A DNA stretch of 41,010 nucleotides from Rufibacter ruber. Lineage in GTDB: Bacteria; Bacteroidota; Bacteroidia; Cytophagales; Hymenobacteraceae. This document shows positions 1 through 41,010 of this stretch, piece after piece. The notes beneath the pieces were generated by a model that was given only the letters and a program-made list of their open reading frames with translations, did no database searches and was not told the DNA's origin. Both the position numbers and the translations under genes were made by a program. The stretch spans positions 1 through 41,010 of the forward strand of contig NZ_LRMM01000046.1 in assembly GCF_001647275.1 (NCBI RefSeq), given 5' to 3'. The stretch's first letter is position 1. The number at the start of each line of letters is the position of its first letter.

Positions 1-31
1 GCCTGTTTTTCAGAAAACAGGCCGAAAACAG
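1..31. repeat. 40-bp palindromic intergenic repeat, copy 1 (cut by window edge)
   Basis: This is the right three quarters of the repeat: inner CTGTTTT, loop TCAG, AAAACAG, spacer GCCG, AAAACAG. What is visible matches the perfect copy at 35470-35509 exactly. It lies 45 bp upstream of the ABC transporter operon. Confidence 0.9.
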
Positions 32-76
32 AAGACTAGTTCAAGAATTTCAGGAAGTGAATAGAGCCAAGCAAGT

Positions 77-880
77 ATGATTCAGCATGTAGACAACCCG
101 GTGTTGGAAGTGCACGACCTGACGGTAAGTTACCAGCGCAAGCCTGTGCTGTGGGACGTGGACCTCACCTTGCCCCCCAAAGCCCTGGTGGGGATCATTG
201 GGCCTAACGGCGCGGGCAAGTCTACCCTTATTAAAGCGGTCATGGGGCTGCTTCCGCTGAACAGCGGCTACGTGCAGCTGTTTGGGCAGGGGCTGGACCA
301 GGTCAGGAAAAAAGTAAGCTACGTGCCGCAGCGCGAATCTGTGGACTGGGATTTCCCGGCCTCTGCGCTTGATGTGGCACTCATGGGAACGTATGGGCAG
401 TTAGGTTTATTTAAACGCCCCACCGCCCTCCACCGCCAGCAGGCCATGGAAGCACTTGAGAAGGTAGGCATGCAGGACTTTGCCAACCGGCAAATATCCC
501 AGCTCTCAGGCGGGCAGCAGCAGCGGGTTTTCCTGGCCCGGGCCCTGGCGCAGAACGCAGATCTGTACCTCATGGATGAACCCTTTGCGGGCGTAGACAT
601 CGCCACAGAAACTGCCATCATTGAGCTTCTGCGGCAGATGCGCGAAGCGGGCAAAACGGTAGTGGTGGTACACCATGACCTGCAGTCTGCCCAGGATTAT
701 TTTGACTGGATCATCCTGCTCAACATGCGTCTGATCGCCTCCGGCCCCACCGCTGAGACGCTCACCCCTGCCCTGCTGGAAAAAACCTATGGAGGGCGGC
801 TCACTGAGCTAAGCCGGGTAAGTGAACTGCTCCACAAGAAGAACTTCCCCATCAGGGAAACCAAACCGGCCAAGAAATGA
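77..880 (+). CDS. Metal (Zn/Mn-type) ABC transporter ATP-binding protein
   Basis: Cytoplasmic ATPase that powers uptake of a divalent metal (zinc or manganese; iron is possible) through the two permeases encoded next. The 267-residue protein has Walker A GPNGAGKST at residues 42-50, the signature LSGGQ at 143-147 and Walker B with DEP at 162-169, so it should be active. Length and sequence style fit the TroB/MntB/ZnuC family. The stop overlaps the start of the next gene by 4 bp (ATGA), indicating a co-translated operon. The solute-binding lipoprotein such systems need is not in the window; a palindromic repeat lies immediately upstream, so that gene is either further upstream or elsewhere. 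The exact metal cannot be read from the sequence. Confidence 0.93.
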   Translation: MIQHVDNPVLEVHDLTVSYQRKPVLWDVDLTLPPKALVGIIGPNGAGKSTLIKAVMGLLPLNSGYVQLFGQGLDQVRKKVSYVPQRESVDWDFPASALDVALMGTYGQLGLFKRPTALHRQQAMEALEKVGMQDFANRQISQLSGGQQQRVFLARALAQNADLYLMDEPFAGVDIATETAIIELLRQMREAGKTVVVVHHDLQSAQDYFDWIILLNMRLIASGPTAETLTPALLEKTYGGRLTELSRVSELLHKKNFPIRETKPAKK

Positions 881-2169
881 ATGCCTTGTGGGAATTCCTG
901 AGCATGAGTGATGCCAACGTGCGCTACGTAACGCTGGGCTCTGTTTTACTGGCGGCCAGTTCTGCCGTGGTGGGCTGTTTTACGGTACTGAGAAAAAGAG
1001 CGCTGGTGGGTGACGCCGTGGCCCATGCCGTGCTGCCCGGCGTCTGCCTGGCATTTTTGTTAAGCGGTGAGAAAAACCCGCTGCTGCTGCTCCTGGGCTC
1101 CTTTGTCACCGGCTGGCTGTCTCTCATCGCCATTGACACCATCACCTCTAAGAGCCGCATTAAAGAAGACACGGCCATTGGGCTGGTGCTGTCAGTGTTC
1201 TTTGGGGTGGGTATTCTGTTTCTCACGGCTATCCAGCACTCCGGCAACGAGAACCAGAGCGGGTTAGACAAATTCCTGTTCGGCAGTGCCGCGGCGTTGG
1301 TGGGCCAGGACCTGATCACGTTTGGCGCCGTGGCTACGCTCCTGCTCCTGAGTGTGCTGCTGCTGTACAAAGAATTTAAACTGGTTAGTTTTGACATGGC
1401 GTACGCCCGCACCATTGGCCTGCCCGTGCGGGCCCTGGAACTGGTATTGACCACCCTCACCGTTTTGGCGGTGGTAGTGGGAATCCAGTCGGTGGGGGTG
1501 GTGCTCATGTCTGCCATGCTGATCACGCCCGCCGCCGCCGCCCGCTTCTGGACAGACCGCCTGGGGGTCATGGTCACCATTGCCGCCCTCATGAGTGCCG
1601 TGTGCGGGGCCGCCGGGGCCTTTGTCTCCTTCACCGCCCCGGCCATGCCCACCGGCCCCTGGATTGTCATGATCCTTTCGCTGCTGGCCATCCTCTCCTT
1701 TCTGCTGGCCCCCCGGCGGGGTCTTGTGGCGCGGCTTTTGTTACAACGGCGTGTGCGTAGGCAAATGATGCGGGAGAACATCTTGAAAACGCTTTTCCTG
1801 CTGGGCGAATCAAAGAACGAACAAGGCCTCAGCTATACCAGAAAACAGATCAGTGAACGCAGAAAAATGCCCTTGCTCACCATGCAGGAGAGCCTGCGCG
1901 TACTGCGCAGCAAGGGGCTGGTCACCCACGGCTCTTCCGGCTGGTCTCTGACAGAGGCGGGCATGAAGGAGGCGCAGCGGGTGGTGCGCCTGCACCGGCT
2001 TTGGGAGCTATACTTAACTGAATACCTGCAGGTGGCCTCAGACCATGTGCATGAAGACGCTGAATCTATTGAACACGTACTTACCCCAGAGCTGGAGAAA
2101 CGGCTGGAAGAACTTCTAAACTACCCTACCGCAGATCCGCACCAAACCGTTATACCCCAACAACCATGA
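877..2169 (+). CDS. Metal ABC transporter permease fused to DtxR/MntR-like domain
   Basis: Inner-membrane permease of the ZnuB/TroC family with an additional C-terminal regulator-like domain, 430 residues against about 280-300 for a plain family member. Residues 1 to about 290 form the hydrophobic multi-span ABC-3 permease. From about residue 298 the chain is soluble: a winged-helix-like stretch (TRKQISERRKM, then a helix and RSKGLV) is followed by the metal-binding and dimerisation motif of the DtxR/MntR family, recognisable from HRLWELYL, DHVHEDAE, IEHVL and a YPTADPH-like end. A reasonable inference is that this domain senses cytoplasmic metal and gates transport or transcription. The start overlaps the ATPase gene by 4 bp and the stop overlaps the next permease by 4 bp. 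The fusion frame is open and uninterrupted. Confidence 0.92.
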   Translation: MNALWEFLSMSDANVRYVTLGSVLLAASSAVVGCFTVLRKRALVGDAVAHAVLPGVCLAFLLSGEKNPLLLLLGSFVTGWLSLIAIDTITSKSRIKEDTAIGLVLSVFFGVGILFLTAIQHSGNENQSGLDKFLFGSAAALVGQDLITFGAVATLLLLSVLLLYKEFKLVSFDMAYARTIGLPVRALELVLTTLTVLAVVVGIQSVGVVLMSAMLITPAAAARFWTDRLGVMVTIAALMSAVCGAAGAFVSFTAPAMPTGPWIVMILSLLAILSFLLAPRRGLVARLLLQRRVRRQMMRENILKTLFLLGESKNEQGLSYTRKQISERRKMPLLTMQESLRVLRSKGLVTHGSSGWSLTEAGMKEAQRVVRLHRLWELYLTEYLQVASDHVHEDAESIEHVLTPELEKRLEELLNYPTADPHQTVIPQQP

Positions 2170-3062: not shown

Positions 3063-3182
3063 GAGTACCTCTCAAATCTGAAGGCGGGCTATTTCAGGAA
3101 GACAGCACCTCAGTTCGGGAAAAGACAACAATAGAAATGCTCTTTTTACGTCTTTAACGTTAGGTAGCTTCTTGAACAGGAA

Positions 3183-3222
3183 CTGTTTTGGAGCTACTTT
3201 TTGTAAAACAGAGGAAAACCAG
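3183..3222. repeat. 40-bp palindromic intergenic repeat, copy 2 (degenerate)
   Basis: It keeps the 7-4-7-4-7-4-7 layout with outer CTGTTTT, spacers GGAG and AGGA, loop TTGT and right arms AAAACAG and AAACCAG; the second heptamer is changed to CTACTTT. It lies 7 bp upstream of the likely start of the thioredoxin-like gene. Confidence 0.7.
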
Positions 3223-3229
3223 CCAACCC

Positions 3230-3727: not shown

Positions 3728-3803
3728 CCTATCTTTTGATTCATCTTAATAGCCGCTGCGCAAGAAGCCGCCCCAGTATTCTGGAGCAGTTTTCTACATT
3801 CTT

Positions 3804-3843
3804 CTGTTTTTAGGCTATTTTTGTAAAAACAGGCCAAAAACGG
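3804..3843. repeat. 40-bp palindromic intergenic repeat, copy 3
   Basis: Heptamer layout retained with left spacer TAGG, loop TGTA and right spacer GCCA; the last heptamer is AAAACGG. The second heptamer and loop create TATTTTTG, a match to the Bacteroidota -7 box TAnnTTTG, about 50 bp upstream of mnmE. It may serve as a promoter here. Confidence 0.85.
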
Positions 3844-3870
3844 CTTTTGATCTCTTAGAACCTTCTGAAC

Positions 3871-7860: not shown

Positions 7861-8189
7861 AAAGTATAGTACCGTTTTTATATAACAAAGGTTGAATAAT
7901 AAAGGAGAGCCTGCTCTGAAGGGGGTGCAGAAACGAATGTGCAAGTACTGGTTTTTAGCAGCTCTGGCGGCTTTCTGCCATGGGGGTGTTTCTGTTTATG
8001 GCGTACTTTTCTGAAATCAGGCCCAAACCAAGGCTAACGGTTCTCACCCGGCAAAGTGCCATTCACAGAACCTGCGTTCACCCTCTCCATACCGCGCAGC
8101 TTAGAACCGCATATGCAGAACTTTTCTCTGACACGCTTTCCCAGTAAAATGGGAATTTACGCATGCTCTCCCTCAGGAAAGGTCTGGAC
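7861..8189. other. Intergenic stretch
   Basis: About 330 bp between the 5' end of the kinase gene and the 3' end of the next minus-strand gene. It contains repeat copy 4. I see no other gene, RNA or strong promoter. Confidence 0.6.
7992..8031. repeat. 40-bp palindromic intergenic repeat, copy 4 (degenerate)
   Basis: Layout 7-4-7-4-7-4-7 with heptamers CTGTTTA, GTACTTT, AAATCAG and AAACCAA; spacers TGGC and GCCC; loop TCTG. It is one of the more decayed copies and lies between two minus-strand genes. Confidence 0.65.
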
Positions 8190-8684: not shown

Positions 8685-9109
8685 TTGGCTATTTCCTCTG
8701 CGGGATTCCTGTACGGTTCTGGAGGCAAAGGTAATTAAAACCGCTGTGGGAGAAGGCACCTAACTTGCTTTATTCTGCCTGAAGGAGCAGGTTGTTGCTG
8801 TACAAAGGCAAAAAAGCGTACAAGACGACTGCCGGCACTACCTCTTGCTGTAAGGGGAACCAAGCCGGTTGGCTGATTCTAAAACCACTCCATTTGCCAA
8901 CCCGCCCTTGCCGCAGCTCCCATTCCTGGCGGAGAACGGGAGTAGATAAAAGCTGTTTTCGGCCTGTTTTCTTGAAACAACGCGAAAACAGCTATTTTAA
9001 AAGCAGGCAACAGGGGGGCAAACCAAAATCTCACGCTACCTCCAGACCCTAAAGAGCCAAATGCAACCTACCCGTTCTCCTGTAGCAGATAAGATAGGGC
9101 AGAGATTTT
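8685..9109. other. Intergenic stretch
   Basis: About 425 bp between two minus-strand genes. It holds repeat copy 5; the short open frames elsewhere in it have no recognisable protein features. Confidence 0.6.
8953..8991. repeat. 39-bp palindromic intergenic repeat, copy 5
   Basis: Left half is the perfect CTGTTTT, CGGC, CTGTTTT; the loop is CTTG; the right arm lost one base between the heptamers, giving 39 bp. The outer heptamers still pair exactly (CTGTTTT with AAAACAG). Confidence 0.85.
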
Positions 9110-10975: not shown

Positions 10976-11015
10976 CTGTTTTTGGCTTATTTTATGAAAA
11001 ACAGTCCAAAAACAG
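10976..11015. repeat. 40-bp palindromic intergenic repeat, copy 6
   Basis: Outer heptamers CTGTTTT and AAAACAG are intact; spacers are TGGC and TCCA, a mostly paired variant; the loop is ATGA. This copy is between two divergent genes, so it is not simply a 3' end signal. Confidence 0.85.
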
Positions 11016-11848: not shown

Positions 11849-11888
11849 CTGTTTTCGGCCTGTTTTTCTAAAAGCAGCCCGAAAACAG
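11849..11888. repeat. 40-bp palindromic intergenic repeat, copy 7
   Basis: Nearly perfect: spacers CGGC and CCCG, loop TCTA, third heptamer AAAGCAG. It is located between convergent genes (HMA-like protein and receptor pseudogene). Confidence 0.9.
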
Positions 11889-13909: not shown

Positions 13910-13949
13910 CTGTTTTTGGCCTGTTTTTCTGAAAACAGCCCCAAAACAG
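13910..13949. repeat. 40-bp palindromic intergenic repeat, copy 8
   Basis: All four heptamers are perfect; spacers TGGC and CCCC; loop TCTG. It starts 5 bp after one stop codon and ends 16 bp before the other, filling the gap between two convergent genes. Confidence 0.93.
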
Positions 13950-17293: not shown

Positions 17294-17333
17294 CTGTTTT
17301 GGGGCTGTTTTTGCAAAACCAGCCCCAAAACAG
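17294..17333. repeat. 40-bp palindromic intergenic repeat, copy 9
   Basis: Spacers GGGG and CCCC replace CGGC and GCCG, keeping full pairing, which is a compensated change. Loop TGCA; third heptamer AAACCAG-like (AAAACCAG across the boundary). Flanking CTTC and GAAG extend the stem. Confidence 0.92.
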
Positions 17334-18886: not shown

Positions 18887-18926
18887 CTGTTTATAGACTG
18901 ATTTAGAAGAACATGTTTGAAACTGA
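18887..18926. repeat. Decayed candidate of the 40-bp repeat
   Basis: Begins CTGTTTA and ends AAACTGA, with a middle heptamer CTGATTT in phase, 40 bp in total. Pairing is largely lost. Support comes mostly from its position directly beside the same flank module that adjoins copy 14. Confidence 0.4.
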
Positions 18927-21487: not shown

Positions 21488-21542
21488 ATTGCCTTAATGA
21501 CACCTATTGATTTTTAATTCTTAATTCTAATAATATATAACT

Positions 21543-23657
21543 ATGGCAAGTTTAAAATCATTGAATGAATTATTTACGAATACCCTTTATAGAATTCCTG
21601 ACTACCAAAGAGGTTATGCCTGGACAACAGACCAATTAAAAGCATTCTGGGATGATTTGTATAATCTCAACGATAGTAAGAACCATTATACAGGTGTTCT
21701 TACCGTTAAAAGCGTTCCACAGGAAATCATCAATTCCGTTAAGTGGAACGAAGAGCAGTGGGTACTACGGGAAAGAGGCTACAAAGCATTTTATATTGTT
21801 GATGGTCAGCAGCGCCTTACCACTTCAATAATTTTTATCCAGGCTTTAGCAGATGTGTATCAGGCAATGCCTGATAACTCAAAAGTGCATGAAAGTGATA
21901 TTTATGTTGGCTCTTATTCACTAAAAGAAATAAAAGAAACATTCCTCTTATTAAAGAAACCTCCACACAATATTATTGCTACCTATAAGTTCGGCTACGA
22001 AAGCGATAATCCTAGTTTTGACTTCTTGCGCAGTAGAATATTCAATGAAAATAGTACCCAATCAGTAGACGAAACTTTCTATACCCTTAATCTTGAGAAT
22101 GCTAAAAAGTTCTTTGTCCAGAAGTTAAGAGGCGTTTTTGATATAGAAGGACAAGCAGGATTAGTAGCACTGTTCAAAAAGCTTACTGTCAACTTCAGGT
22201 TTAATCTTTATGAAATTGAAGATGATTTTGATGTTTTTGTAGCTTTTGAGACCATGAATAACCGTGGTAAAAAGTTATCTAATCTGGAATTGTTGAAAAA
22301 CAGATTAATATACCTTACCACTCTCTATGATGAGCAGGAGCTAAAAGAAGATGATAGAATCTCTTTGAGAACAAAAATTGACACTGCTTGGAAAGAAGTA
22401 TATTATCAATTAGGCAGAAATAAACATCATCCTCTAAATGATGATGATTTCTTGGTAGCACATTGGATTATATATTTCCAATACTCTCGTCAGAAGGGAG
22501 ATGATTACATCAACTTCTTGTTAAATGACCAATTCACCCCCCGAAATATATTTACTAGAGTTGAAATACCTGTCACTAGCCTGGAGGAATATGAATTAAT
22601 AACTGACTCAGACGAAGAAAGTGAAGATGAAAGTGCAGAGGATATTGTGCAAAATACCCTACCAGTATCAAAACTAAAACCTAAGGAGATTGAAAATTAT
22701 GTACTGAGCCTCCAAGCAGCAGCCGTACATTGGTATAATTCATTCAACCCTGTTAATAATCCCGACTTGACACACCAAGAACAAGTGTGGATTGATAGAC
22801 TAAATAGAATTGGTATCGCCTATTTTCGCCCATTGGTCACTGCTTCATTTTTAAACGAGTCCATTTCCTCAGAAGACAGAGTAAATCTCTTTAAGGGAAT
22901 TGAGAGATTTATTTTCATCGCTTTCAGAATGAAAAGTGCTGCTTCAACTTATAGGAACAGCGAATTTTTTAAAGCAGCTAGACATCTAAGAAATGGTGAT
23001 TGGACATTAAAATATATCATCAGTTTATTAGATACTAGAATTCAGTACTCTTTTTATAATGGTGAAGAAGAAGAAACGTATTTTGATTATGGATACTTTA
23101 AAAAATATCTAGAAAAGCACTTCCAGAATGGAGGCGGATATTATAGATGGAATGCTTTAAGATACTTTCTGTACGAGTATGAAATGGAGTTAGTACAACA
23201 AAGAGGTAGTCAAAAAATTGACTGGAACCTTTTTGTAAAAAATGAAGGAGACAGAGTAAGTATTGAGCATATTTTGCCACAGACGCCAGATAACAAATAT
23301 TGGAAGGAGGTTTTAAAGCCAATCCCTAAGTCTAAAAGAACCCGACTTATAGATACATTGGGCAACCTTGTTCCTTTGTCCTTAAGTATTAACTCCAGCC
23401 TTCAGAATGATGCTTTTGATGATAAAAAGAAGGCAAAACTTGATGACCGTGGCAACAAAGTAAGGCAAGGGTACAACAATGGCTCACACAGTGAAATTGA
23501 AGTGTCACTTAATGACCAATGGACTCACGAGGAAATTTTAGAACGAGGATTAAGGCTCCTTAGCTTTATGGAAAAAAGGTGGAATTTTAAATTTGAGTCA
23601 GAGGAAGATAAGATAGCCCTGCTTGGGCTAGAATTTATCACCGAGAAAGCAGATTAG
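21543..23657 (+). CDS. DUF262/DUF1524 (GmrSD-like) defence protein
   Basis: A 704-residue protein of the DUF262-DUF1524 architecture shared by GmrSD-type modification-dependent restriction enzymes and SspE. The DUF262 part has IPDYQRGYAW, the nucleotide-site motif IVDGQQRLTT (DGQQR at 87-91) and FETMNNRGKKLSNLELLK. The C-terminal part has the HNH-like DUF1524 motif SIEHILPQ, then LGNLVPL. Both functional halves are intact. Family knowledge suggests it may nick or degrade modified phage DNA; the trigger is unknown. The gene is far more AT-rich than hsdR and hsdM on either side and is followed by its own terminator, suggesting later insertion into the locus. Confidence 0.9.
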   Translation: MASLKSLNELFTNTLYRIPDYQRGYAWTTDQLKAFWDDLYNLNDSKNHYTGVLTVKSVPQEIINSVKWNEEQWVLRERGYKAFYIVDGQQRLTTSIIFIQALADVYQAMPDNSKVHESDIYVGSYSLKEIKETFLLLKKPPHNIIATYKFGYESDNPSFDFLRSRIFNENSTQSVDETFYTLNLENAKKFFVQKLRGVFDIEGQAGLVALFKKLTVNFRFNLYEIEDDFDVFVAFETMNNRGKKLSNLELLKNRLIYLTTLYDEQELKEDDRISLRTKIDTAWKEVYYQLGRNKHHPLNDDDFLVAHWIIYFQYSRQKGDDYINFLLNDQFTPRNIFTRVEIPVTSLEEYELITDSDEESEDESAEDIVQNTLPVSKLKPKEIENYVLSLQAAAVHWYNSFNPVNNPDLTHQEQVWIDRLNRIGIAYFRPLVTASFLNESISSEDRVNLFKGIERFIFIAFRMKSAASTYRNSEFFKAARHLRNGDWTLKYIISLLDTRIQYSFYNGEEEETYFDYGYFKKYLEKHFQNGGGYYRWNALRYFLYEYEMELVQQRGSQKIDWNLFVKNEGDRVSIEHILPQTPDNKYWKEVLKPIPKSKRTRLIDTLGNLVPLSLSINSSLQNDAFDDKKKAKLDDRGNKVRQGYNNGSHSEIEVSLNDQWTHEEILERGLRLLSFMEKRWNFKFESEEDKIALLGLEFITEKAD

Positions 23658-23684
23658 TGCTTTCCCTTCAATATGATTAAACCC

Positions 23685-23720
23685 AAAGCAACCCCTTGAA
23701 ATGTTAAGGGGTTGCTTTTT
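23685..23720 (+). terminator. Intrinsic terminator after the DUF262 gene
   Basis: A perfect 13-bp stem, AAAGCAACCCCTT and its complement, around an 8-nt loop, ending in TTTTT. It lies 27 bp after the DUF262 stop and 30 bp before hsdM. hsdM and hsdS must therefore rely on read-through or on a promoter in the 30-bp gap, which I cannot identify. Confidence 0.85.
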
Positions 23721-23749
23721 ACTAGTGATTACGCTTACATAAACACACA

Positions 23750-25189
23750 ATGAGTAACCTTTCCGGTATTATCAAATCCATCAGAGACATCATGCGCCAG
23801 GATGCGGGCGTGGACGGAGACGCGCAGCGGATTTCGCAGATGGTCTGGATGCTTTTCTTAAAAGTGTTCAGTGACAAAGAAGAAGAATGGGAACTGACCA
23901 TAGAGAACTACAAATCACCTATTCCGGCGGGGTTGCAGTGGAGCCAGTGGGCGGCCAATGAAGAAGGCATGACCGGCGAGGAGCTGTTGCAGTTCATCAA
24001 CAATGAGCTGTTTGAGACGCTAAAGAATCTGGAGGTATCGCCCAAGGCAGACCCGCAGGGCTGGATTGTGAAGCAGGTGTTTGAAGACACCTACAACTAC
24101 ATGAAAAGCGGCACGCTCATCAGGCAGGTCATCAACAAAATAAACCAGATAGACTTCAACTCGTCCAGTGACCGGCACTTGTTCAATGACATCTATGAGA
24201 ACATACTCAAGGAACTGCAAAGCGCGGGTTCGTCTGGGGAGTATTACACGCCCAGGGCGGTCACGCAGTTTATGGTAGACATGACCGCGCCGCAGATGGG
24301 CGAGACTGTGCTGGACCCGGCCTGCGGAACGGGTGGTTTTCTTACTTGCGCCATTGAGCACGTGCGCGCGCAACTGAGCAACCCCAGTGATATCCAGACC
24401 TTGCAAAGCAGCTTTCAGGGAGTAGAGAAAAAGCCTCTGCCGCACATGCTGGCCACCACTAACCTCATGCTGCATGGCATGGATGTGCCCGTAATACGGC
24501 ACGACAACTTGCTAGTGCGCCCCTATGACAGCTGGACAAGCAAAGACCAGGTAGACATTATCCTGAGCAATCCACCGTTTGGCGGCACCGAGGAAGACGG
24601 CACCGATGCCAATTTTCCGCCCAAGTTCAAGACCAAAGAAACCGCCGACCTGTTCATGGCCCTCATCATGCGCCTGCTCAAGCCCATCGGCCGCGCCGCG
24701 GTAGTATTGCCAGACGGCACGCTGTTTGGCGAGGGCGTGAAAACCCGCATCAAGGAAGAACTCCTGAGCAAGTGCAACCTGCATACCATTGTGCGCCTGC
24801 CCAACGGTGTGTTCAACCCGTACACCAGCATTAAAACCAACCTGCTGTTCTTCACCAAGGGCCAGCCTACCAAAGAGGTGTGGTATTTTGAGCACCCGTA
24901 CCCGGCGGGGCAAAAAAGCTACAACAAAGGCAAGCCCATCCACATCAAAGAATTTGACCTGGAGAAAGCCTGGTGGCATAACCGCGAGGAGAACCAGCAC
25001 GCTTGGCGCGTGTCTGTTGAGGACATTGCCGCCCGAAACTACAACCTGGACATCAAGAACCCGCACGCACCAGAGAACGACTTGGGTGACCCTGCCGACC
25101 TGTTGGAAAAGCTTCAGTTGACTGCCCAACGCGTAAAGGCGCTTCAGGCAGACATTGTGACCGCATTAGAAGAATCTTTACTAGCCTAA
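23750..25189 (+). CDS. hsdM: Type I DNA methyltransferase subunit M
   Basis: N6-adenine methylase that forms an M2S complex with HsdS and protects host DNA. The 479-residue protein starts with the HsdM N-terminal helical domain (SGIIKSIRDIMRQDAG, MVWMLFLKVFSD) and carries SAM-binding motif I DPACGTGGFL and catalytic motif IV NPPFGG, followed by the LLKPIGRAAVVLPDG and NPYTSIKTNLLFF segments. Composition returns to the GC-rich level of hsdR. hsdS begins 6 bp after its stop, indicating joint translation. Confidence 0.96.
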   Translation: MSNLSGIIKSIRDIMRQDAGVDGDAQRISQMVWMLFLKVFSDKEEEWELTIENYKSPIPAGLQWSQWAANEEGMTGEELLQFINNELFETLKNLEVSPKADPQGWIVKQVFEDTYNYMKSGTLIRQVINKINQIDFNSSSDRHLFNDIYENILKELQSAGSSGEYYTPRAVTQFMVDMTAPQMGETVLDPACGTGGFLTCAIEHVRAQLSNPSDIQTLQSSFQGVEKKPLPHMLATTNLMLHGMDVPVIRHDNLLVRPYDSWTSKDQVDIILSNPPFGGTEEDGTDANFPPKFKTKETADLFMALIMRLLKPIGRAAVVLPDGTLFGEGVKTRIKEELLSKCNLHTIVRLPNGVFNPYTSIKTNLLFFTKGQPTKEVWYFEHPYPAGQKSYNKGKPIHIKEFDLEKAWWHNREENQHAWRVSVEDIAARNYNLDIKNPHAPENDLGDPADLLEKLQLTAQRVKALQADIVTALEESLLA

Positions 25190-25195
25190 GCCCGC

Positions 25196-26956
25196 ATGGT
25201 ACTACTGGAGCAATTTGAACAACTCACCGGGCACCCCAAGAACGCCGCCAAACTCAAAGAGCTGGTGCTGCAACTGGCCGTGCAAGGCAAACTCACCGAG
25301 GCCTGGCGAAACCAACACCAAAACGTAGAACCCGCCTCGGAACTTCTCAAAAAGATTGAGGCCGAGAAGGCGCAGTTGGTGAAGGAGAAGAAGATTAAGG
25401 AAGATAAACCGCTGGAGCCGATTTCTGAGAAAGATGCTTATTATGAAATACCAGAAAATTGGGTATGGTGTAGGTTGCAACAATGTCTTGATGTTAGAGA
25501 TGGAACACATGACACACCCAAGTATCATACAGAAGGTGTTCCTCTTGTAACTAGTAAAAACTTGTCTTCAGGAAAATTAAGTTTGGAAAACGTAAAACTT
25601 ATTTCGCTTGAAGACCATGATGAAATTTCTAAAAGGTCGAAAGTTGAGAAAGGGGACATTCTTTTTGCAATGATTGGTTCAATTGGTAATCCAGTAATGG
25701 TTGATATTGAGCCAAACTTTAGTATTAAAAATGTTGCTCTTTTTAAATATTACCTGAAAGAGACTCCTATTCCAGCCTACCTTCTTCTATACCTTCAATT
25801 TGCGCAACAAAGAATGAAAGAAGCGGCAACAGGCGCTGTTCAATCATTTGTCTCTTTAGGTGATTTAAGGAGGTTCTTACTTCCCCTTCCGCCGTTAGCG
25901 GAGCAGGAAGCCATTGTGGTGCGGGTAGAAGAGCTGATGCAGAAAATTGAGGAACTGGAGAAAGGAACCCTAGAAAGAATACAGCTGCAAAAGAGACTGG
26001 GCGAGGCCGCGTTACAGGCGCTCACCACCGCCCCGGCAGACGAACTGGAGCAGCAGTGGCTTTTCCTGAAGGAGCATTTCCAGCTTCTCTTCACCCAAGA
26101 GGCCAACGTGAAAAAGCTCCGGGAAACCATTCTGCAACTGGCGGTGCAAGGCAAACTCACCACAGCGTGGCGCCAGCAAAACCCTACCGTGCAGCCCGCC
26201 GCCCAACTCCTGCAACAGATTCAGGCCGAGCAAGCGCAACTGGTGAAGGAGAAGAAAATCAAGAAAGAGAAACCGCTAGAACCCATCGCAGAATCTGAAG
26301 TGCCCTATGAACTGCCTGAAGGTTGGGTTTGGTGTAGGTTATCAAACATAATTGAAGATACTGATGCTGGAAAAAGTCCCCAGTGTGATAATCGCCCAGC
26401 AGAGCCTAATGAATTTGGCTTCATTAAGACAACAGCTATTCAATCTTTAAATTTCTTACCTAAAGAAAATAAGGCGGTATTAAAAGATGAACACATAAGT
26501 TTGGCTTATGAAATAAAAGCAGGAGATATTCTAATTACACGTGCAGGTCCTAGAAATCGTGTTGGAATTGTTTGTGCTGTAACTGCCACTAGAGATAAAT
26601 TATTGCTTTCTGACAAAACCGTTAGAATTAAACCTATTCAAGGTAATTTTCTCAATTCTAGATTTTTGGCAATTACACTTAGTACAGGTGCTTCAGGTGA
26701 TTATCTTGAAACTAAAAAGTCAGGTATGGCTGATAGTCAGGTAAATATTACTCAAGATAATATTAAATTAACTCCTGTCGCTCTTCCCCCACTCGCCGAA
26801 CAAGAAGCCATAGTCGCCAAAGTTGACCAGCTTATGCAGTTGTGTGAGGCACTGGAGAATCAGCTAAAGCAGTCTAACCAGCAGTCTGAGGCCCTGATGC
26901 AGGCCGTGGTGCACGCCGCCTTGCAACCGCAGGAAGAACCGGTCTTGGAGGCGTAA
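25196..26956 (+). CDS. hsdS: Type I specificity subunit S (two recognition domains)
   Basis: DNA-recognition subunit that sets the target of both methylation and cleavage. In 586 residues there are two target-recognition domains (about 80-230 and 375-525) inside repeated scaffold: the segment LQLAVQGKLT plus QLVKEKKIK and WVWCRL occurs before each domain, and LPPLAEQEAIV after each, with a final coiled coil. Scaffold DNA is GC-rich; both recognition-domain cores are visibly AT-rich. The near-identical DNA of the two scaffolds (25271-25297 against 26135-26161) offers sites for domain exchange. The recognition sequence cannot be inferred from these domains alone. Confidence 0.95.
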   Translation: MVLLEQFEQLTGHPKNAAKLKELVLQLAVQGKLTEAWRNQHQNVEPASELLKKIEAEKAQLVKEKKIKEDKPLEPISEKDAYYEIPENWVWCRLQQCLDVRDGTHDTPKYHTEGVPLVTSKNLSSGKLSLENVKLISLEDHDEISKRSKVEKGDILFAMIGSIGNPVMVDIEPNFSIKNVALFKYYLKETPIPAYLLLYLQFAQQRMKEAATGAVQSFVSLGDLRRFLLPLPPLAEQEAIVVRVEELMQKIEELEKGTLERIQLQKRLGEAALQALTTAPADELEQQWLFLKEHFQLLFTQEANVKKLRETILQLAVQGKLTTAWRQQNPTVQPAAQLLQQIQAEQAQLVKEKKIKKEKPLEPIAESEVPYELPEGWVWCRLSNIIEDTDAGKSPQCDNRPAEPNEFGFIKTTAIQSLNFLPKENKAVLKDEHISLAYEIKAGDILITRAGPRNRVGIVCAVTATRDKLLLSDKTVRIKPIQGNFLNSRFLAITLSTGASGDYLETKKSGMADSQVNITQDNIKLTPVALPPLAEQEAIVAKVDQLMQLCEALENQLKQSNQQSEALMQAVVHAALQPQEEPVLEA

Positions 26957-26990: not shown

Positions 26991-27030
26991 CCGTTTTCGG
27001 CCTGTTTTTCAGAAATCAGCCCTAAAACGG
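26991..27030. repeat. 40-bp palindromic intergenic repeat, copy 10
   Basis: Outer heptamers are CCGTTTT and AAAACGG, a compensated pair change relative to CTGTTTT and AAAACAG. Spacers CGGC and CCCT, loop TCAG. It lies 34 bp after hsdS and marks the right side of the repeat-free restriction island. Confidence 0.92.
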
Positions 27031-28107: not shown

Positions 28108-28147
28108 CCGTTTTCGGCCTGTTTTCTGAAAAACAGGTCCAAAACGG
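28108..28147. repeat. 40-bp palindromic intergenic repeat, copy 11
   Basis: Outer CCGTTTT and AAAACGG (compensated), spacers CGGC and GTCC. The loop is CTGA, the reverse complement of TCAG, so this copy may be in the opposite orientation to copy 16. Confidence 0.92.
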
Positions 28148-29045: not shown

Positions 29046-29085
29046 CTGTTTTAGGCTTGTTTTCAGAAAAACAGGCGTAAAACGA
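29046..29085. repeat. 40-bp palindromic intergenic repeat, copy 12
   Basis: Heptamers CTGTTTT, TTGTTTT, AAAACAG and AAAACGA; spacers AGGC and GCGT; loop CAGA (a one-base slide of the usual centre). Lies between two small plus-strand genes. Confidence 0.82.
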
Positions 29086-30027: not shown

Positions 30028-30067
30028 CTGTTTATGACTTGTTTTTCTGAAATGAAGCACAAACCAG
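30028..30067. repeat. 40-bp palindromic intergenic repeat, copy 13 (degenerate)
   Basis: Heptamers CTGTTTA, TTGTTTT, AAATGAA and AAACCAG; spacers TGAC and GCAC; loop TCTG. Between convergent genes. Confidence 0.65.
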
Positions 30068-30130: not shown

Positions 30131-30541
30131 TTATCTCACTGAATACATATCAGAAATGATATTCAAGATATCTGGACTAAACGGTTTGGAGAAATAGTCA
30201 GTCACCACTGACTGTTGCGGGGAGGGGCTAAGGTTCTGCTTGTCTATGGCCGAGGACAGCACAAACAGCTGGCAGTTCTGAATGAGCCCGCCCGGGAGCT
30301 TTTTGAATTCCTCTATAAACTCCCACCCGTCCATTCCCGGGATGTGAATGTCCAGGAAGATGATCTCCGGAAAACTGGCCGGATCCTCCTGAGAGAGGCT
30401 GGCAAGGGTTTGCAAAGCCTCTTCCGCCCATAGAAAACTGGTAACAGAGGCAGAGAACTTGTAACTCCGGATGATGCTTTCGCATAGAAAATTATGGAGT
30501 TCATCATCATCAATTAAAAAAACCTTCTGGTATCTACTCAT
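30131..30541 (-). CDS. Single-domain response regulator (CheY-like)
   Basis: A 136-residue stand-alone receiver domain. Acidic pocket DDD at 11-13, phospho-acceptor Asp64 in FLDIHIPGMDGWEF, a threonine/serine position in LSSAID and the conserved lysine in YFSKPF. All signalling residues are present, and there is no output domain, so it presumably acts by protein-protein contact, as single-domain regulators of Bacteroidota commonly do. Neither of the window's two histidine kinases is adjacent; pairing is unknown. Confidence 0.93.
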   Translation of the reverse strand: MSRYQKVFLIDDDELHNFLCESIIRSYKFSASVTSFLWAEEALQTLASLSQEDPASFPEIIFLDIHIPGMDGWEFIEEFKKLPGGLIQNCQLFVLSSAIDKQNLSPSPQQSVVTDYFSKPFSPDILNIISDMYSVR

Positions 30542-31178: not shown

Positions 31179-31218
31179 CCGTTTCTGGGCTACTTTTCAG
31201 AAAACAGACCGGAAACAG
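31179..31218. repeat. 40-bp palindromic intergenic repeat, copy 14
   Basis: Outer heptamers CCGTTTC and GAAACAG, second CTACTTT, third AAAACAG; spacers TGGG and ACCG; loop TCAG. The flank module adjoins its right side. Confidence 0.72.
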
Positions 31219-31453: not shown

Positions 31454-31493
31454 CTGTTTCTGACCTATTTTCCTGAAAACAGGCCAGAAACGC
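31454..31493. repeat. 40-bp palindromic repeat, copy 15 (overlaps rluF 3' end)
   Basis: Heptamers CTGTTTC, CTATTTT, AAAACAG and GAAACGC; spacers TGAC and GCCA; loop CCTG. It supplies the stop codon and the last eight or so codons of the pseudouridine synthase gene on the minus strand. Confidence 0.82.
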
Positions 31494-32187
31494 GGGCGGT
31501 TAGTTCCGCCACTTCGGGTGCCGTGAGTGACCGCCACGCTCCCTGCGGCAGGTTTCCCAGTTCCACCGTCACCATGCGGGTCCGCACCAGCCGGTTCACC
31601 GTATACCCCAGTTGGTAACACATACGTCTGATCTGGCGGTTGAGGCCCTGCGTCAGGATAATGGTAAATGTCATCTCCCCCACCTGCTGTACCCGTGCCG
31701 GTCTTGTCATTTGTTCCATAATCACCACCCCAGAAGCCATTCGGGCCAGGGCCTCCGGGGTCAGCGGCTGGTCAACCGTCACCAGATACTCCTTTTCCTG
31801 ATGGTATTGGGGCTGGCTGATGCTCTTGTACAGATGACCATCATTGGTGAGCAGCAGAAGCCCTTCAGACTCTTTGTCCAGCCTGCCAATGGGGAACAGC
31901 CGCTCCTCCAGGTTCAACGCGTGCACCAGGTTGTGGTCAATCTCTGGGTTCAGGGTTGACTCCACCCCCCTGGGCTTGTAGTAGGCCAGGTAGGTAAAGG
32001 CCTGTGGGGCTTTCAGGACCTGCCCGTTGAGGGTTACCCCGTCTTCTGGCCTGAGCACCTGCTGCAGTCTCCCCTTCTGGCCGTTCACCAACACCCGCCC
32101 CGCCAGAACCGCCTCAATGGCTTCTTTGTTAGACAGCCTCGCCTTCTGCACCACAAAATACTGCAGGGAGGAATTCCATGATTTCAT
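31465..32187 (-). CDS. rluF: RsuA/RluF-type rRNA pseudouridine synthase
   Basis: Enzyme that isomerises a specific uridine to pseudouridine in rRNA (23S U2604 for RluF). The 240-residue protein has an N-terminal S4 RNA-binding domain (about 7-50, ending VLVNGQ), the catalytic motif IGRLDKESEGLLLLTNDG with Asp104, KEYLV, and the C-terminal motif GLNRQIRRMC followed by LGYTVNRLVRTRM. RluF is the nearest group by these motifs; RluB/RluE/RsuA cannot be fully excluded. The last residues ARVSGLFSGK derive from repeat copy 15. A copy of the repeat in a coding end is unusual. Confidence 0.9.
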   Translation of the reverse strand: MKSWNSSLQYFVVQKARLSNKEAIEAVLAGRVLVNGQKGRLQQVLRPEDGVTLNGQVLKAPQAFTYLAYYKPRGVESTLNPEIDHNLVHALNLEERLFPIGRLDKESEGLLLLTNDGHLYKSISQPQYHQEKEYLVTVDQPLTPEALARMASGVVIMEQMTRPARVQQVGEMTFTIILTQGLNRQIRRMCYQLGYTVNRLVRTRMVTVELGNLPQGAWRSLTAPEVAELTARVSGLFSGK

Positions 32188-35296: not shown

Positions 35297-35469
35297 AGCC
35301 CCGCAACAGAAGGGCCTGCTTAAATTTTGGCTTGCTTGCTAAGAAAGCCATAGCCAGAACCGGCATCCATGCTTTTTCGGGGGAAAGTTTTTGGTTTTGG
35401 ACCCGCTCTAGAAGACCTCCCGCTGTTCCTGTTGGTAGGCAAACCCAATACATACTCCTGAGCAATTTT

Positions 35470-35509
35470 CTGTTTTCGGCCTGTTTTTCAGAAAACAGGC
35501 CGAAAACAG
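35470..35509. repeat. 40-bp palindromic intergenic repeat, copy 16 (perfect)
   Basis: The best copy: CTGTTTT, CGGC, CTGTTTT, TCAG, AAAACAG, GCCG, AAAACAG, with an 18-bp fully paired stem. It lies between convergent SDR and transglycosylase genes, 7 bp from the latter's stop. Confidence 0.97.
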
Positions 35510-35516
35510 AAGGCTT

Positions 35517-36431: not shown

Positions 36432-36923
36432 GCGTTCCTCCTTTATTTTCTCTTCTCCCTTATACAGGCCCAGAAGCGGTAAAAGTTATCTTCTTTGCAG
36501 ATAAGTTACCGCCCCTGTCTTACAAGAAACGCTCCAGAAGCCCCTAAACGTACCCCATGCGCCTACTTTCACAGCTTTCGTTGGGGTGACCCTTATCAAA
36601 ACGCCTTCTGTTTTAGGGCTGTTTTTCAGAAAACAGCCCCAAAACAGAAGGCGGGGAAAGATTGCCAGGAAATGGAGTTCTATTTAAACATACGCCCCAG
36701 TAGACAACGTTTCTGCCTTCATAGCGGCCTCTGCCCTTCTTATTGGGGAATGGAAAAATTGCCCGTGCTGCGTCAAATATACCAGAAAACCTTTCTGACG
36801 CATTTTAAAGTTGAGGCAATTTGTACTTCCACCGCTCCCCCAAAGGGTACGTGAAAGCTTATCTTTCCCTGGCACAGGTTAGGCAGAAGAACAACAGCTG
36901 ACGGGTCAGGTCAGATTTCCTTT
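36432..36923. other. Intergenic region
   Basis: About 490 bp between two minus-strand genes. It contains repeat copy 17. The short open frame 36495-36854 crosses the repeat and shows no protein character. Nothing else recognised. Confidence 0.6.
36608..36647. repeat. 40-bp palindromic intergenic repeat, copy 17 (extended stem)
   Basis: Four perfect heptamers, spacers AGGG and CCCC, loop TCAG. Six further bases pair outside (CGCCTT with AAGGCG), giving a stem of about 24 bp over 36602-36653. Confidence 0.95.
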
Positions 36924-38056: not shown

Positions 38057-38534
38057 AACCGCTCCTCTCAAAAAAAACATCCGCATGTTTTAGCCCCAAT
38101 AAGGACCATTGACCTCCCAAGATAGCAACCGCCCCTCTTAATCCCTACGCCGCGCCACTTTTTATCACCGCCGCGCCCCGTTCATGCCGCTGGTCAGATT
38201 TTCTGTTTTGGGGCTGTTTTCAGAAAAACATCCCCTAAACAGAAACCGTCTCCCCCTATCTTAACACCCTGTCATAGTTACGGTTACCTACCGTCATTAC
38301 AGGTTCTGCTTTATGGCACAGCACAGCACAGCACTGGCCTCCAACCCTTGCCCATGGGCCTTCTGGTTCCTGTAAGCCCAACCGGCAGGCCACGGGCAAC
38401 CTTCCCTTCGGCAAAGCCGAAGGAGTAAACGTTGAAAGAAGGAACAAAGTAATGGATTACACCAAAAGGAAGAAAAGAGGCAAAAAGCCTTTTCGCTGCC
38501 AAAACTTTGTTTTCTTTGTTTAAAACCCAAACCT
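38057..38534. other. Divergent intergenic region
   Basis: About 480 bp between the ECF sigma gene and the next plus-strand gene. It holds repeat copy 18 at 38203-38242 and a small 8-bp stem (CCTTCGGC and GCCGAAGG) at 38405-38423. No gene recognised. Confidence 0.6.
38203..38242. repeat. 40-bp palindromic intergenic repeat, copy 18
   Basis: Heptamers CTGTTTT twice, AAAACAT and TAAACAG; spacers GGGG and CCCC (compensated like copy 9); loop CAGA. Positioned between divergent genes. Confidence 0.88.
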
Positions 38535-38999
38535 ATGCTACCACCAGAAGAGGACGGGGAGGAATTCTCGCTGCCAGACCAGTTGGAACTCTACCAGAAA
38601 GGGCGGGAGATTTTCCAGCTGACCGTGAAGATTGCAGCCCTCATTGAAGAGGACCAGGAGATTCATGTGAGCCTGATGGAGCAGATGCTGGAAGACGCTT
38701 CCCTCCTGACGGTGAAAGTGGCGGGCGCCGAGGCCTCTGACCTCTACGACCTGCGCATGGAGAATGCCACCCTCATCAGAAAGGCGGCCCGGGACCTTCT
38801 CACCCACTGCACCAGCCTGGAGATGTTCGGGTTTAAAGACGTGCACTACTTCCGCCTGCTCCGTGAAGCCATTGAAGAATACCGGCTCCTTTTTCTTGAA
38901 TGGGTGAACAGCTTTGACCCCTGGAATTATCTGCTGGACACCTGGGGGCTTTTCAACCCGCCCGGTATTTCGCCCAATACAGGAGACAACCAAGATTAA
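38535..38999 (+). CDS. Hypothetical helical protein
   Basis: A 154-residue acidic, alpha-helical soluble protein. It has repeated amphipathic helices (GREIFQLTVKIAALIEED, then LRKAARDLLTHC-like and YRLLFLEWVNSFDPWNY), as in small four-helix-bundle proteins, but I do not recognise the family. No signal peptide. It is followed by the XdhC gene about 200 bp downstream on the same strand. ATG at 38535 is the only reasonable start. Confidence 0.65.
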   Translation: MLPPEEDGEEFSLPDQLELYQKGREIFQLTVKIAALIEEDQEIHVSLMEQMLEDASLLTVKVAGAEASDLYDLRMENATLIRKAARDLLTHCTSLEMFGFKDVHYFRLLREAIEEYRLLFLEWVNSFDPWNYLLDTWGLFNPPGISPNTGDNQD

Positions 39000-39201
39000 C
39001 CTCTTTCAGGCCAGTAGGTTATCATAAATCTGTTCACGCGCCCAAACCAAGAGCGCCAGAAAAAAGTACACCAAAGGGCAATCTTCATGGTAGACTTTGC
39101 AAGCGGTACAGGGTCTGCCAAAGCTTCTGTGCCGTACCAAAGACCAATTAAACCCATGTGCTTTCGTCCATACACTCCCACATTAGCTTCTTTCCCTTTC
39201 C

Positions 39202-40362: not shown

Positions 40363-40365
40363 GTC

Positions 40366-40956
40366 ATGCAACTCCTGGGAACGATCATTCTGGCCGCCGG
40401 GGCCTCTACCCGCCTGGGGCAAGCCAAGCAGCAACTGGTGTTTCAAGGCCAGACACTGCTCCAGCACACCCTGCAAGCGGCGTTGGCGCTGCAAGCCGGT
40501 CCGGCTGTGGTGGTGGTAGGCGCAAATGCCCCGGCTATTTTACCAGACATTTCTACCTTCAATGCCCTGGTGGTACACAACCCTCTCTGGCAGGAAGGCA
40601 TGGCCTCTTCTATCAAAGCGGGGGTAACGCATCTGCTTTCTGTCTCCCCAGACCTGGAGGGAATTCTGGTGCTGCTCTGCGACCAGCCTTTTGTCTCTAC
40701 CGCTCTTTTACAGGAGATGGCTACTGCTTTCCAATGTTCAGGTCAGAACATCATAGCCTGCTCGTACCAGGGCACGGTGGGCGCGCCGGTGCTTTTCAGC
40801 CAGCATTTCTTTCCGGCGTTACGTCAACTCAACGGTCAGGAAGGCGCTAAGAAACTGTTATCCCAATACCCGGCAGACGTTGCCGTAATTCCCTTTCCGC
40901 TAGGCGGAATAGATATTGACACGCCAGAAGATTACCAACGGCTGCTGCAGTTATAG
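40366..40956 (+). CDS. mocA: Molybdenum cofactor cytidylyltransferase-like (MocA) protein
   Basis: Nucleotidyltransferase of 196 residues, of the MobA/MocA group, that in the family transfers CMP from CTP to the molybdenum cofactor. Motifs: LAAGASTRLGQAKQQL for nucleotide binding and the conserved CDQPFVS segment. Gene order with xdhC suggests production of the cytosine-dinucleotide cofactor for a xanthine-oxidase-family enzyme. GMP specificity cannot be ruled out from sequence. Confidence 0.9.
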   Translation: MQLLGTIILAAGASTRLGQAKQQLVFQGQTLLQHTLQAALALQAGPAVVVVGANAPAILPDISTFNALVVHNPLWQEGMASSIKAGVTHLLSVSPDLEGILVLLCDQPFVSTALLQEMATAFQCSGQNIIACSYQGTVGAPVLFSQHFFPALRQLNGQEGAKKLLSQYPADVAVIPFPLGGIDIDTPEDYQRLLQL

Positions 40957-40980
40957 AACCCGGTTCTTGATGCTATCCTT

Positions 40981-41010
40981 CTGTTTTCGGCCTGTATTTA
41001 TGAAACAGGC
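40981..41010. repeat. 40-bp palindromic intergenic repeat, copy 19 (cut by window edge)
   Basis: CTGTTTT, CGGC, CTGTATT, loop TATG, then AAACAGG; cut off by the window end. It follows the mocA stop by 24 bp. Confidence 0.85.

Follow-up and report, generated by a model that had tools for sequence, protein, structure and literature searches.

What kind of element is the 40-bp palindromic repeat that recurs between the genes of Rufibacter ruber, and what could maintain it? The window analysed here is the entire contig C108 (41010 bases). A first-pass annotation had listed 19 copies and a decayed candidate, with the heptamer CTGTTTT twice in the left arm, AAAACAG twice in the right arm, and four-base spacers and loop. 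The described sequence is present at every one of the 19 coordinates, and the heptamer design is borne out by 17 complete copies that have 0-7 mismatches over the 28 heptamer letters, three of which (13910, 35470, and 36608) match exactly at 28/28. Two further copies, at 1 and 40981, are truncated by the window ends, and the single decayed candidate fits best at 18887, with 6 mismatches and a 3-base loop. At up to 8 mismatches there are 18 places in the window compared to 0.35 expected (mean of 20 second-order Markov sequences), and at up to 6 mismatches there are zero places in the 20 simulated sequences. The stem at 35470, which had been called perfect, has 20-bp arms that are 100% complementary around a 4-nt loop, and copy 36608 has 24-bp arms at 96% complementarity. 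As had been noted, the window copies lie in convergent, divergent, and codirectional gaps. They are listed below without a strand of their own; signs in brackets are the strands of the flanking genes, and mismatches are counted over the heptamer letters.

1..31, element, left arm lost at the contig end, upstream of metal ABC transporter genes
3183..3222, element, codirectional gap (+ +), 3/28 mismatches
3804..3843, element, codirectional gap (+ +), 2/28 mismatches
7992..8031, element, codirectional gap (- -), 7/28 mismatches
8953..8991, element with 3-nt loop, codirectional gap (- -), 2/28 mismatches
10976..11015, element, divergent gap (- +), 2/28 mismatches
11849..11888, element, convergent gap (+ -), 1/28 mismatches
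13910..13949, element, convergent gap (+ -) of 60 bp, 0/28 mismatches
17294..17333, element with long extended arms (28 nt at 96%), codirectional (+ +), 1/28 mismatches
18887..18925, decayed candidate between a helicase gene and hsdR, 6/28 mismatches, loop of 3, right arm badly broken
26991..27030, element, codirectional, 3' of an hsdS-type gene, 3/28 mismatches
28108..28147, element between + ORFs (end 28083, start 28200), the second not gene-called, 2/28 mismatches
29046..29085, element between + ORFs (end 29004, start 29128), neither gene-called, 3/28 mismatches
30028..30067, element between a + ORF (end 30016, ORF list only) and a - gene (30131-30541), 6/28 mismatches
31179..31218, element, codirectional gap (- -), 5/28 mismatches
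31454..31493, element overlapping the 3' end of an RluF-like pseudouridine synthase gene (31465-32187, -), 5/28 mismatches
35470..35509, best element, perfect palindrome with 20-bp perfect arms (35468-35511), convergent (+ -), 0/28 mismatches
36608..36647, element with 24-bp arms at 96%, codirectional gap (- -), 0/28 mismatches
38203..38242, element, divergent gap (- +), 2/28 mismatches
40981..41010, element cut by the contig end, after a + gene (40366-40956)

The density of about one copy per 2 kb holds beyond the window, as 435 copies were found in 841 kb sampled from the R. ruber genome. A relaxed form of the core occurs 1721 times in the 5.5 Mb of this genome and 0 times when the pattern is read backwards as a control. 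The relaxed core was found 190-1721 times per genome in 16/16 genomes of the Rufibacter-type genus and only 0-2 times per genome in 104 genomes of five other genera, and inspection by eye of 400 kb in total from three other-genus genomes gave no equivalent repeat, the stem-loops there being mostly terminator-like. Of the 14 longest element-free stretches, 11 are below 50% GC (compared to 51.8% for the sample), one of them being 29.7 kb at 39%, and these low-GC stretches look like foreign DNA that lacks elements. The first-pass annotation knew of no named repeat of this shape, and we likewise found no name for what is a genuine genome-wide intergenic family: Rfam returned zero matches at gathering score within the window, the best copy (35470) had no match in plasmid and phage collections, and no description of the repeat was among the open-licence papers that literature searches listed.

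Only 14 of the 435 sampled copies lie inside called genes (the calls are from a home-made caller that covers 69-77% of the DNA), i.e. the repeat is intergenic, and more than one copy per gap is rare. The numbers of occupied convergent, codirectional, and divergent gaps are 53, 132, and 28 compared to 31.6, 87.4, and 19.1 under random placement. An element is carried by 80/93 convergent gaps, including 24/26 of those that are 45-150 bp long. Occupancy is lower in a second genome, G042 (16/38, 40/114, and 12/38 gaps), and therefore evenly spaced elements that occupy nearly all convergent gaps are established for the R. ruber genome only. With the 100 bp ahead of start codons excluded, the density per available kb in R. 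ruber is equal in convergent (5.85), codirectional (6.27), and divergent (5.89) gaps. The enrichment in convergent gaps, which had been considered as evidence for terminators, is gone once promoter-proximal DNA is excluded. Mapping of the copies to gene ends, as had been proposed, did give an excess 0-20 bp past stop codons (27 copies vs 12.9 expected), which would fit a role at gene ends, as would a non-significant lead of sense-strand G-U over A-C in copies close to stops.

The conserved part of the repeat is GTTT-N5-CT-N2-TTT-N4-AAA-N2-AG-N5-AAAC, in which the two heptamers of each half are 11 bp apart, or about one helical turn. The loop is 4 in 406/435 copies when loops of 3-6 are allowed, and the spacers are 4-4-4 in 290/385 placements when their lengths are left free. 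Solitary half-sites are limited to 1/291, namely a contig-cut copy. Among the 60 copies that diverge most, T still makes up 91-97% at positions 5-6 and 16-18, and positions 1, 2, 7, 14, and 15 are down to 30-66%. Correlation within an arm is strong at positions 1-2 (0.25-0.29 bits, z about 40) and 14-15 (z 24-32), and the same position pairs compared across arms give z values of 1.6-3.2, far below the within-arm values. Heptamer mismatches between arms amount to 2.48 per element compared to 2.61 after random arm swapping (z -3.0); this covariation is concentrated in the copies nearest the consensus (z -8.4) and is absent from copies 4-8 mismatches away (z +1.4 and +0.4). The half-sites thus act as modules, and the arms vary largely independently around the conserved blocks.

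Symmetric coupling is nevertheless present at position 8 (z 20), position 11 (z 6), position 2 (z 5.5), and position 9 (z 4), and in G042 at positions 7-8, and there are 40 perfect palindromes compared to 4.4 expected. The pairing counts omit copies with loops other than 4 (29/435) and copies in called genes (10/406). Positions 14-15 have no pairing excess in R. ruber or in G042; they pair in excess when 15 genomes are pooled, which mixes dialects. The coupling, the near-consensus covariation, and the palindrome excess need some pairing, ancestry, or palindrome-correcting component. The label "structured palindrome" therefore fits the near-perfect copies; elsewhere arm pairing and covariation are far weaker than it suggests. 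RNAalifold returned no structure for a MAFFT alignment of the 17 copies. With a hand-set stem, 23 double-changed cells were counted across 14 of the 17 complete copies, compared to 12.6 after shuffling, and selection for a hairpin was considered on this basis and rejected, as in 406 copies the signal is mainly in near-consensus copies, at positions 8, 11, 2, and 9, and in the outer flanks.

The history of individual sites was followed in 11 orthologous gaps of one block, each examined across the genus in at least 8 genomes. Seven have an element in 12/14, 15/16, 9/9, 15/16, 8/15, 15/15, and 8/8 genomes, where a small number of weak matches could have arisen by chance, as the threshold was 9 mismatches. 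Four are without an element in any of 16, 16, 16, and 11 genomes, one of them being too short for an element. The number of elements per orthologous gap varies from 0 to 3. The spelling of the repeat differs between species: a CTCATTT pattern (at most 2 mismatches) occurs 1264 times in genome G051 and 0-30 times in the 15 other genomes of the genus. Such dialects were counted at orthologous gaps in one 20-kb block with 7 gaps (at least 6 genomes with an element); block A, with few conserved gaps, was left out. At these gaps G051 has CA at positions 14-15 in 7/12 half-arms, and G048 has AG at positions 7-8 in 9/14. Most sites stay in their orthologous gaps even as entire genomes shift dialect.

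The site itself, its distribution, the conservation of its positions, and its dialects were observed directly, and they lead us to the tentative reading, at a probability of about 0.43, that a putative symmetric DNA-binding factor recognises the repeat as double-stranded DNA; the protein and its role are inferred. Of the four candidate roles named in the first-pass annotation, a chromosome-organising binding site, its binding protein being putative, is closest to the evidence, and the terminator, RNA-processing, and REP/MITE roles are disfavoured. A sequence-specific factor of two-fold symmetry (dimeric or tetrameric) would recognise the site in the genus that comprises Rufibacter and Sabulibacter, and would read the half-site heptamers 11 bp apart. 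In R. ruber the sites are usually single within a spacer and lie outside about the final 100 bp ahead of a start codon, and throughout the genus they are mostly retained in the same orthologous gaps. Changes in the preference of the factor would cause entire sets of sites to drift together, giving the dialects. Candidate effects of the bound sites are nucleoid organisation, insulation of neighbouring genes, and a barrier to transcription or replication.

Four other explanations were considered. A 3'-end RNA element, either a bidirectional transcription terminator or an mRNA-stabilising or processing stem, would fit the high occupancy of convergent gaps, the peak after stop codons, a mean MFE of about -19.5 kcal/mol, and some short convergent gaps that contain an element and nothing else. 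Bidirectional intrinsic terminators share with the repeat a symmetric stem-loop and frequent placement in convergent gaps. The repeat differs from them in that it has a T-tract 5' of the loop and an A-tract 3' on both strands, which is opposite to terminator order, and in that it lacks RNA-strand polarity. G-U pairs on the sense strand are not in excess over A-C (231 vs 238), and in the 82 near-perfect copies (47 vs 35) and in copies within 30 bp of a stop codon (77 vs 63) the difference is not significant; G-U polarity was significant neither in all copies, nor in near-perfect ones, nor at variable positions, whereas 33 canonical terminators used as a positive control gave 14 G-U vs 2 A-C. 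Divergent gaps are as densely occupied as convergent ones. Canonical terminators also coexist with the repeat, in 24/53 convergent gaps of R. ruber compared to 14/28, 4/14, and 8/13 in three other-genus genomes, and since they are as frequent without the repeat, the repeat does not stand in for them. An arm serves as the T-tract of an adjoining stem-loop at 30/866 element sides (about 2 when shuffled), which would fit a 3'-end role; as a general explanation, a U-tract for a neighbouring hairpin was rejected because it holds for a minority only. A function at the RNA level is thus quite unlikely. It is highly improbable that the copies are old neutral repeats that owe their recognisable form solely to gene conversion and to palindrome correction by template switching. 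The excess of perfect palindromes and the symmetric coupling at position 8 would be expected from such correction, but it should hit every position, and it is rejected as the sole cause because positions 14 and 15 have no pairing excess in R. ruber and G042; the strong position-specific constraint, an occupancy more even than chance, and the retention of positions in orthologous gaps also argue against it. An uptake-type sequence, in which favoured uptake and homologous recombination convert sites in place and molecular drive yields dialects (as proposed for DUS/USS), is very unlikely. Dialects of DUS/USS differ by lineage, and the change of dialect in place, the frequency, the scarcity in low-GC stretches, and the confinement to tolerant DNA are all consistent with it. 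DUS/USS of Neisseriaceae and Pasteurellaceae likewise have very many copies. Their evolution in place is also point-mutation-like (PMC1939737). They are short non-palindromic words, whereas the repeat is a 40-bp palindrome without solitary halves that is rare inside genes; according to PMC1939737, 65% of uptake sequences in H. influenzae and 35% in N. gonorrhoeae are inside ORFs. The highly iterated palindrome HIP1 of cyanobacteria shares a lineage-level, very high copy number, but is 8 bp (GCGATCGC) in contrast to the 40-bp, intergenic repeat with its degenerate core.

REP elements are extragenic and lie near stop codons. A REP-like non-autonomous repeat that was spread long ago in the genus ancestor by RAYTs (REP-associated tyrosine transposases) and is now mostly immobile, with the dialects as successive subfamilies, is an unlikely origin. 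Shared with the REP/BIME elements and RAYTs of E. coli, Pseudomonas, and others is the format of palindromes of 20-40 bp that reach high copy numbers (PMC3733652) and, in part, the presence of RAYT genes in the genome, with elements that are weakly denser nearby. PF01797 was found in 15/16 genomes of the genus and 3/3 RAYT proteins tested passed NF047646. The search for RAYT-type transposases that had been proposed thus found them, with a weak association: when all loci were recounted against each genome's own density, 54 elements surrounded 28 loci compared to 36.8 expected (P 0.0045), and 47 compared to 35.1 (P 0.03) without locus L010, which has 7 elements within 2.1 kb. An earlier count of 16/31 loci had given a background-like 0.58/kb. 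Part of the excess is expected for short genes, as genes of 450-650 bp have 1.97 elements per 3.2 kb vs about 1.67 overall, and RAYT genes have no regular flanking pair of elements, 2/31 loci having none. The excess of perfect palindromes, the single exact copy of the G051 dialect in G060, and two elements in G054 where G042 has one diverged element would also fit past mobility. However, G017 has 870 sites and zero RAYT, and RAYTs occur in 28/46 genomes from outside the genus, and such genomes have essentially no sites. REPs are defined by a tetranucleotide, GTAG or CGTC, that terminates their stem-loop on one side (PMC3733652), and some RAYT subclasses are reported to have atypical REPs that lack this tag (PMC6006769); in 406 copies of the repeat, the flanks farther than about 3 bp from the element have no preferred base, and therefore there is no GTAG-type tag. 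Few copies are identical (398/406 are distinct, and 13 perfect copies with a GGGG spacer bear 9 different loops). Six directional comparisons of 70 elements gave 45 with a counterpart, 20 not comparable, 5 scored absent, and 0 clean empty sites; these were between species rather than between strains of one species, and some counterparts are weak matches in conserved coding sequence. The longest element-free stretches, mostly of low GC, also count against the REP-like reading. A REP/MITE element that is mobilised in trans at present is disfavoured, as the vicinity of RAYTs is only 1.3-1.5 times denser and the 870 sites of one genome exist without a RAYT. The repeat further differs from REP/BIME in that it is kept in orthologous gaps and changes its dialect in place.

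If the binding-site reading is true, most of the longer gaps of Rufibacter bear a punctuation mark that the five other sampled genera are without, and 16 natural genomes show more than 1000 sites respelled together yet in place. A broader proposal, which we consider doubtful, is that a DNA-binding system particular to the genus marks most spacers of sufficient length and that this system has switched specificity repeatedly from species to species, at least a thousand sites following in place, which would be a genome-wide co-evolution of factor and sites that is possibly chromosome-organising or gene-insulating. If instead the REP reading is true, the repeat would represent an extensive REP-like family between genes, with copies that are seemingly immobile by now yet kept in place. 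With a recognition site of this kind, the co-evolution of a global DNA-binding factor and its full repertoire of sites would become testable in environmental bacteria.

The sequences that the first-pass annotation had listed in the window were confirmed at their coordinates, and its decayed candidate is best placed at 18887 as one further, decayed copy. The 17 complete copies differ from the four heptamers (CTGTTTT, CTGTTTT, AAAACAG, AAAACAG) at 0-7 of 28 positions, three of them matching exactly, and two further copies are truncated by the contig ends (41,010 bases). With up to 8 mismatches allowed, 18 places were found in the window, whereas 20 Markov sequences averaged 0.35. A scan of the window against Rfam gave no family at gathering score. 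Contig C108, which makes up the window, belongs to a 5.5 Mb genome in 166 contigs. A sample of 841 kb (15%) of this genome was examined, and the 435 copies counted there extrapolate to ~2,800 in the genome.

Rufibacter belongs to the Hymenobacteraceae in the Bacteroidota. The annotation had proposed scanning the whole genome and its relatives, and a relaxed core (GTTT-N5-CT-N2-TTT-N4-AAA-N2-AG-N5-AAAC, at most 1 mismatch) has 1721 matches in the own genome, the range over all 16 genomes of the genus that holds Rufibacter and Sabulibacter being 190-1721; read backwards as a control, it occurred at most once. In five other genera of the family, the relaxed core was absent from 98 of 104 genomes and occurred once or twice in the other six. 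A covariance model, whose E-values are rough, gave the same taxonomic border, with 2-3 matches in three genomes of the group g3. An exact-core scan of the genome collection returned at least 58 loci; 56 of the matches listed are from Rufibacter or Sabulibacter, and the two listed loci outside them (L049 and L064, a single match each) look like chance. The best copy had no match in plasmid and phage collections, and no description of the element was found in the open-licence literature, as judged from search listings.

Genomes other than the own genome were sampled in 20-kb blocks, one of which (block A) yielded few comparable gaps. In one 20-kb block compared across 16 genomes, 11 orthologous gaps were present in at least 8 genomes. 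Seven of these hold an element (in 12/14, 15/16, 9/9, 15/16, 8/15, 15/15 and 8/8 genomes) and four hold none in 16, 16, 16 and 11 genomes, one of the four being only a few bases and too short for an element; copies per gap range from 0 to 3. Between close pairs of genomes (85-89% identity), a counterpart was found for 45 of 70 elements, 20 were not comparable and 5 were scored absent. Four of the five have a diverged element opposite at the same place, and the fifth is a second copy in genome G054 where genome G042 has a single diverged one. The spelling of the element is specific to the genome: GCGTTTAGGGGCTG in G048, TCGTTTTTGG in G017 and G022, CCGTTTTCGGGCTCATTT in G051, and only a loose consensus in G006, G027, G054 and others. 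With at most 2 mismatches, G051 has 1264 matches to the CTCATTT pattern and the 15 others have 0-30 each; orthologous gaps, too, show the spellings of G051 and G048. One exact copy in the G051 spelling lies in another species (G060:C1:455180-455215). On these sequence comparisons, the positions of the elements are old and their spelling is young, entire sets of sites having shifted jointly and in place.

Genes were called with a simple script that covered 69-77% of the DNA, so that small genes escaped it and a number of gaps taken as divergent may be wrongly classed. Only 14 of the 435 copies in the own-genome sample lie inside called genes. Elements are present in 80/93 convergent, 186/388 codirectional and 39/90 divergent gaps. 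The excess in convergent gaps, a terminator-like pattern, was rejected as evidence for a terminator, as it is gone once the last 100 bp before start codons are excluded: in gaps of 45-600 bp with that stretch removed, the density per available kb is 5.85, 6.27 and 5.89, respectively. The own-genome copies are more evenly distributed than chance, occupying 53/60 convergent, 132/236 codirectional and 28/69 divergent gaps of this size class vs 31.6, 87.4 and 19.1 under random placement. In G042, which is another species, the relaxed core fills a smaller share of the gaps (16/38, 40/114 and 12/38, respectively). The one feature that does point to gene ends is an excess beside stop codons, where 27 of 115 copies in codirectional gaps of 200-600 bp start within 20 bp past the stop codon vs 12.9 expected.

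An RNA stem tolerates G-U pairs and not A-C pairs. On the sense strand of copies between codirectional genes G-U and A-C combinations number 231 and 238, and no clear G-U excess was found in copies lying no more than 30 bp from a stop codon (77 vs 63), near-perfect copies (47 vs 35) or variable positions alone (122 vs 131). The positive control consisted of 33 canonical terminators from codirectional gaps of the same DNA, found with G-U and A-C treated alike; these gave 14 vs 2 (P 0.004). The element carries its T tract on the 5' arm and its A tract on the 3' arm, the opposite of the order in an intrinsic terminator. Substitution of the element for canonical terminators was also rejected, since these are present in 24/53 convergent gaps of the own genome vs 14/28, 4/14 and 8/13 in three sampled genomes of other genera. 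An RNA stem is unlikely as the main function because there is no clear G-U excess, the tracts are reversed and terminators are not replaced. Stem-loops that end at an element edge, with the arm serving as T-tract, were found on 30 of 866 sides vs ~2 in shuffled flanks. Additionally, some gaps have an element whose right arm pairs with an arm further downstream to make a canonical terminator, so that the two stems exclude each other:

Own genome (G000), contig C1, 86516-86824: mutually exclusive stems
Own genome, contig C1, 89499-89805: mutually exclusive stems
Own genome, contig C1, 32577-32892: mutually exclusive stems
Own genome, contig C1, 56800-57015: mutually exclusive stems

The two arms were compared in 406 copies with a loop of 4, where most heptamer positions (numbered per arm) pair about as independent columns would. 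Random swapping of arms between copies raised the mismatches per copy from 4.11 to 4.56 (z -3.0 for heptamers, -8.4 for spacers and -5.7 for the outer flank), an effect that resides in near-consensus copies (z -8.4) and is nil in copies with 4-8 mismatches. Perfect palindromes number 40 vs 4.4 expected, and among these there are 13 distinct 4-base spacers and a wide variety of loops. Coupling within an arm is strong at positions 1-2 (z ~40 vs 2 across arms) and 14-15 (z 24-32 vs 2-3). Between arms, same-position coupling is strong at 8 (z 20) and, next to the loop, at 19 (z 15), and weaker at 11 (z 6), 2 (z 5.5) and 9 (z 4); G042 has inter-arm coupling at 7-8. In the most diverged class, T is retained at 5-6 and 16-18 (91-97%) and at 4 (75%), and positions 1, 2, 7, 14 and 15 are down to 30-66%. 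The spacing is 4-4-4 in 290 of 385 copies, the central spacing being almost always four, and 67 of the 95 exceptions have one outer spacer shortened. Solitary half-sites amount to 1 of 291, that one at a contig end. We infer from these patterns a symmetric protein that would read each arm largely independently in double-stranded DNA with the inner pair as the core, a reading that does not cover the 7-8 coupling.

The annotation had also raised a REP-type element mobilised in trans and suggested a search for REP-associated tyrosine transposases (RAYTs). Such genes are present in the genus, and their neighbourhoods are 1.5 times denser in elements than other parts of these genomes (54 vs 36.8 expected at 28 loci, P 0.0045; 47 vs 35.1 without L010), an enrichment that short genes alone show in part. 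The RAYT gene at locus L010 (G000:C100, ~16.3-16.9 kb) is accompanied by seven elements in 2.1 kb, which greatly exceeds the background density. Yet G017 has 870 sites and no RAYT, and RAYTs are found in 28 of 46 searched genomes outside the genus, where elements are essentially absent. No conserved tag was found beyond the element ends, and 398 of the 406 copies are distinct sequences. The element occupies REP-like locations but, by REP definitions taken from PMC3733652 and PMC6006769, lacks some of the tested REP features, namely the terminal tag and signs of mobility. Among the 14 longest stretches free of elements, 11 have a GC content under 50% (sample 51.8%), including one of 29.7 kb at 39%, one of 8.5 kb at 37.5% and, at 44.6%, the restriction stretch of the window; the remaining three are at 53-55%. 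Coding scores are lower for genes flanking empty codirectional gaps (P 0.004), and the drop beside empty convergent gaps is not significant. The low GC and low coding scores suggest that DNA acquired recently is without elements, as expected of vertical inheritance and not of active transposition.

The restriction stretch (19100-26956) encodes a type I restriction-modification set with an EcoAI-type HsdR, whose match exceeds its curated cut-off, and HsdM-like and HsdS-like proteins; a 704-aa protein between hsdR and hsdM (21543-23657) had no NCBIfam match. It is probably a genomic island because it is element-free and low in GC. A perfect 13-bp stem-loop within it (23685-23718, AAAGCAACCCCTT/AAGGGGTTGCTTT) looks like a canonical terminator. 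A single ORF at 877-2169 combines a permease of a metal ABC transporter, in residues 22-278, with a regulator domain of the MntR/DtxR type, in residues 299-429, both matches falling below curated cut-offs. Contig ends lie within an element in 11 of 27 cases examined vs 3.1% of random positions:

Window, 1-31: element at contig end
Window, 40981-41010: element at contig end
Loci L218, L221, L227, L228, L229, L231 and L235: element at contig end
Contigs C1 and C123, starts: element at contig end

The element seems to break the assembly, perhaps through hairpin dropout.

The element is a symmetric DNA site that lies between genes, is confined to the genus and is conserved in position; its dialects span whole genomes, and it shows no sign of constraint at the RNA level. 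Its evolution matches the mode described for uptake sequences in PMC1939737, yet the tested uptake-sequence features fail. The sequence patterns point to recognition by a predicted DNA-binding protein whose specificity would drift, after which selection or molecular drive would convert the sites.
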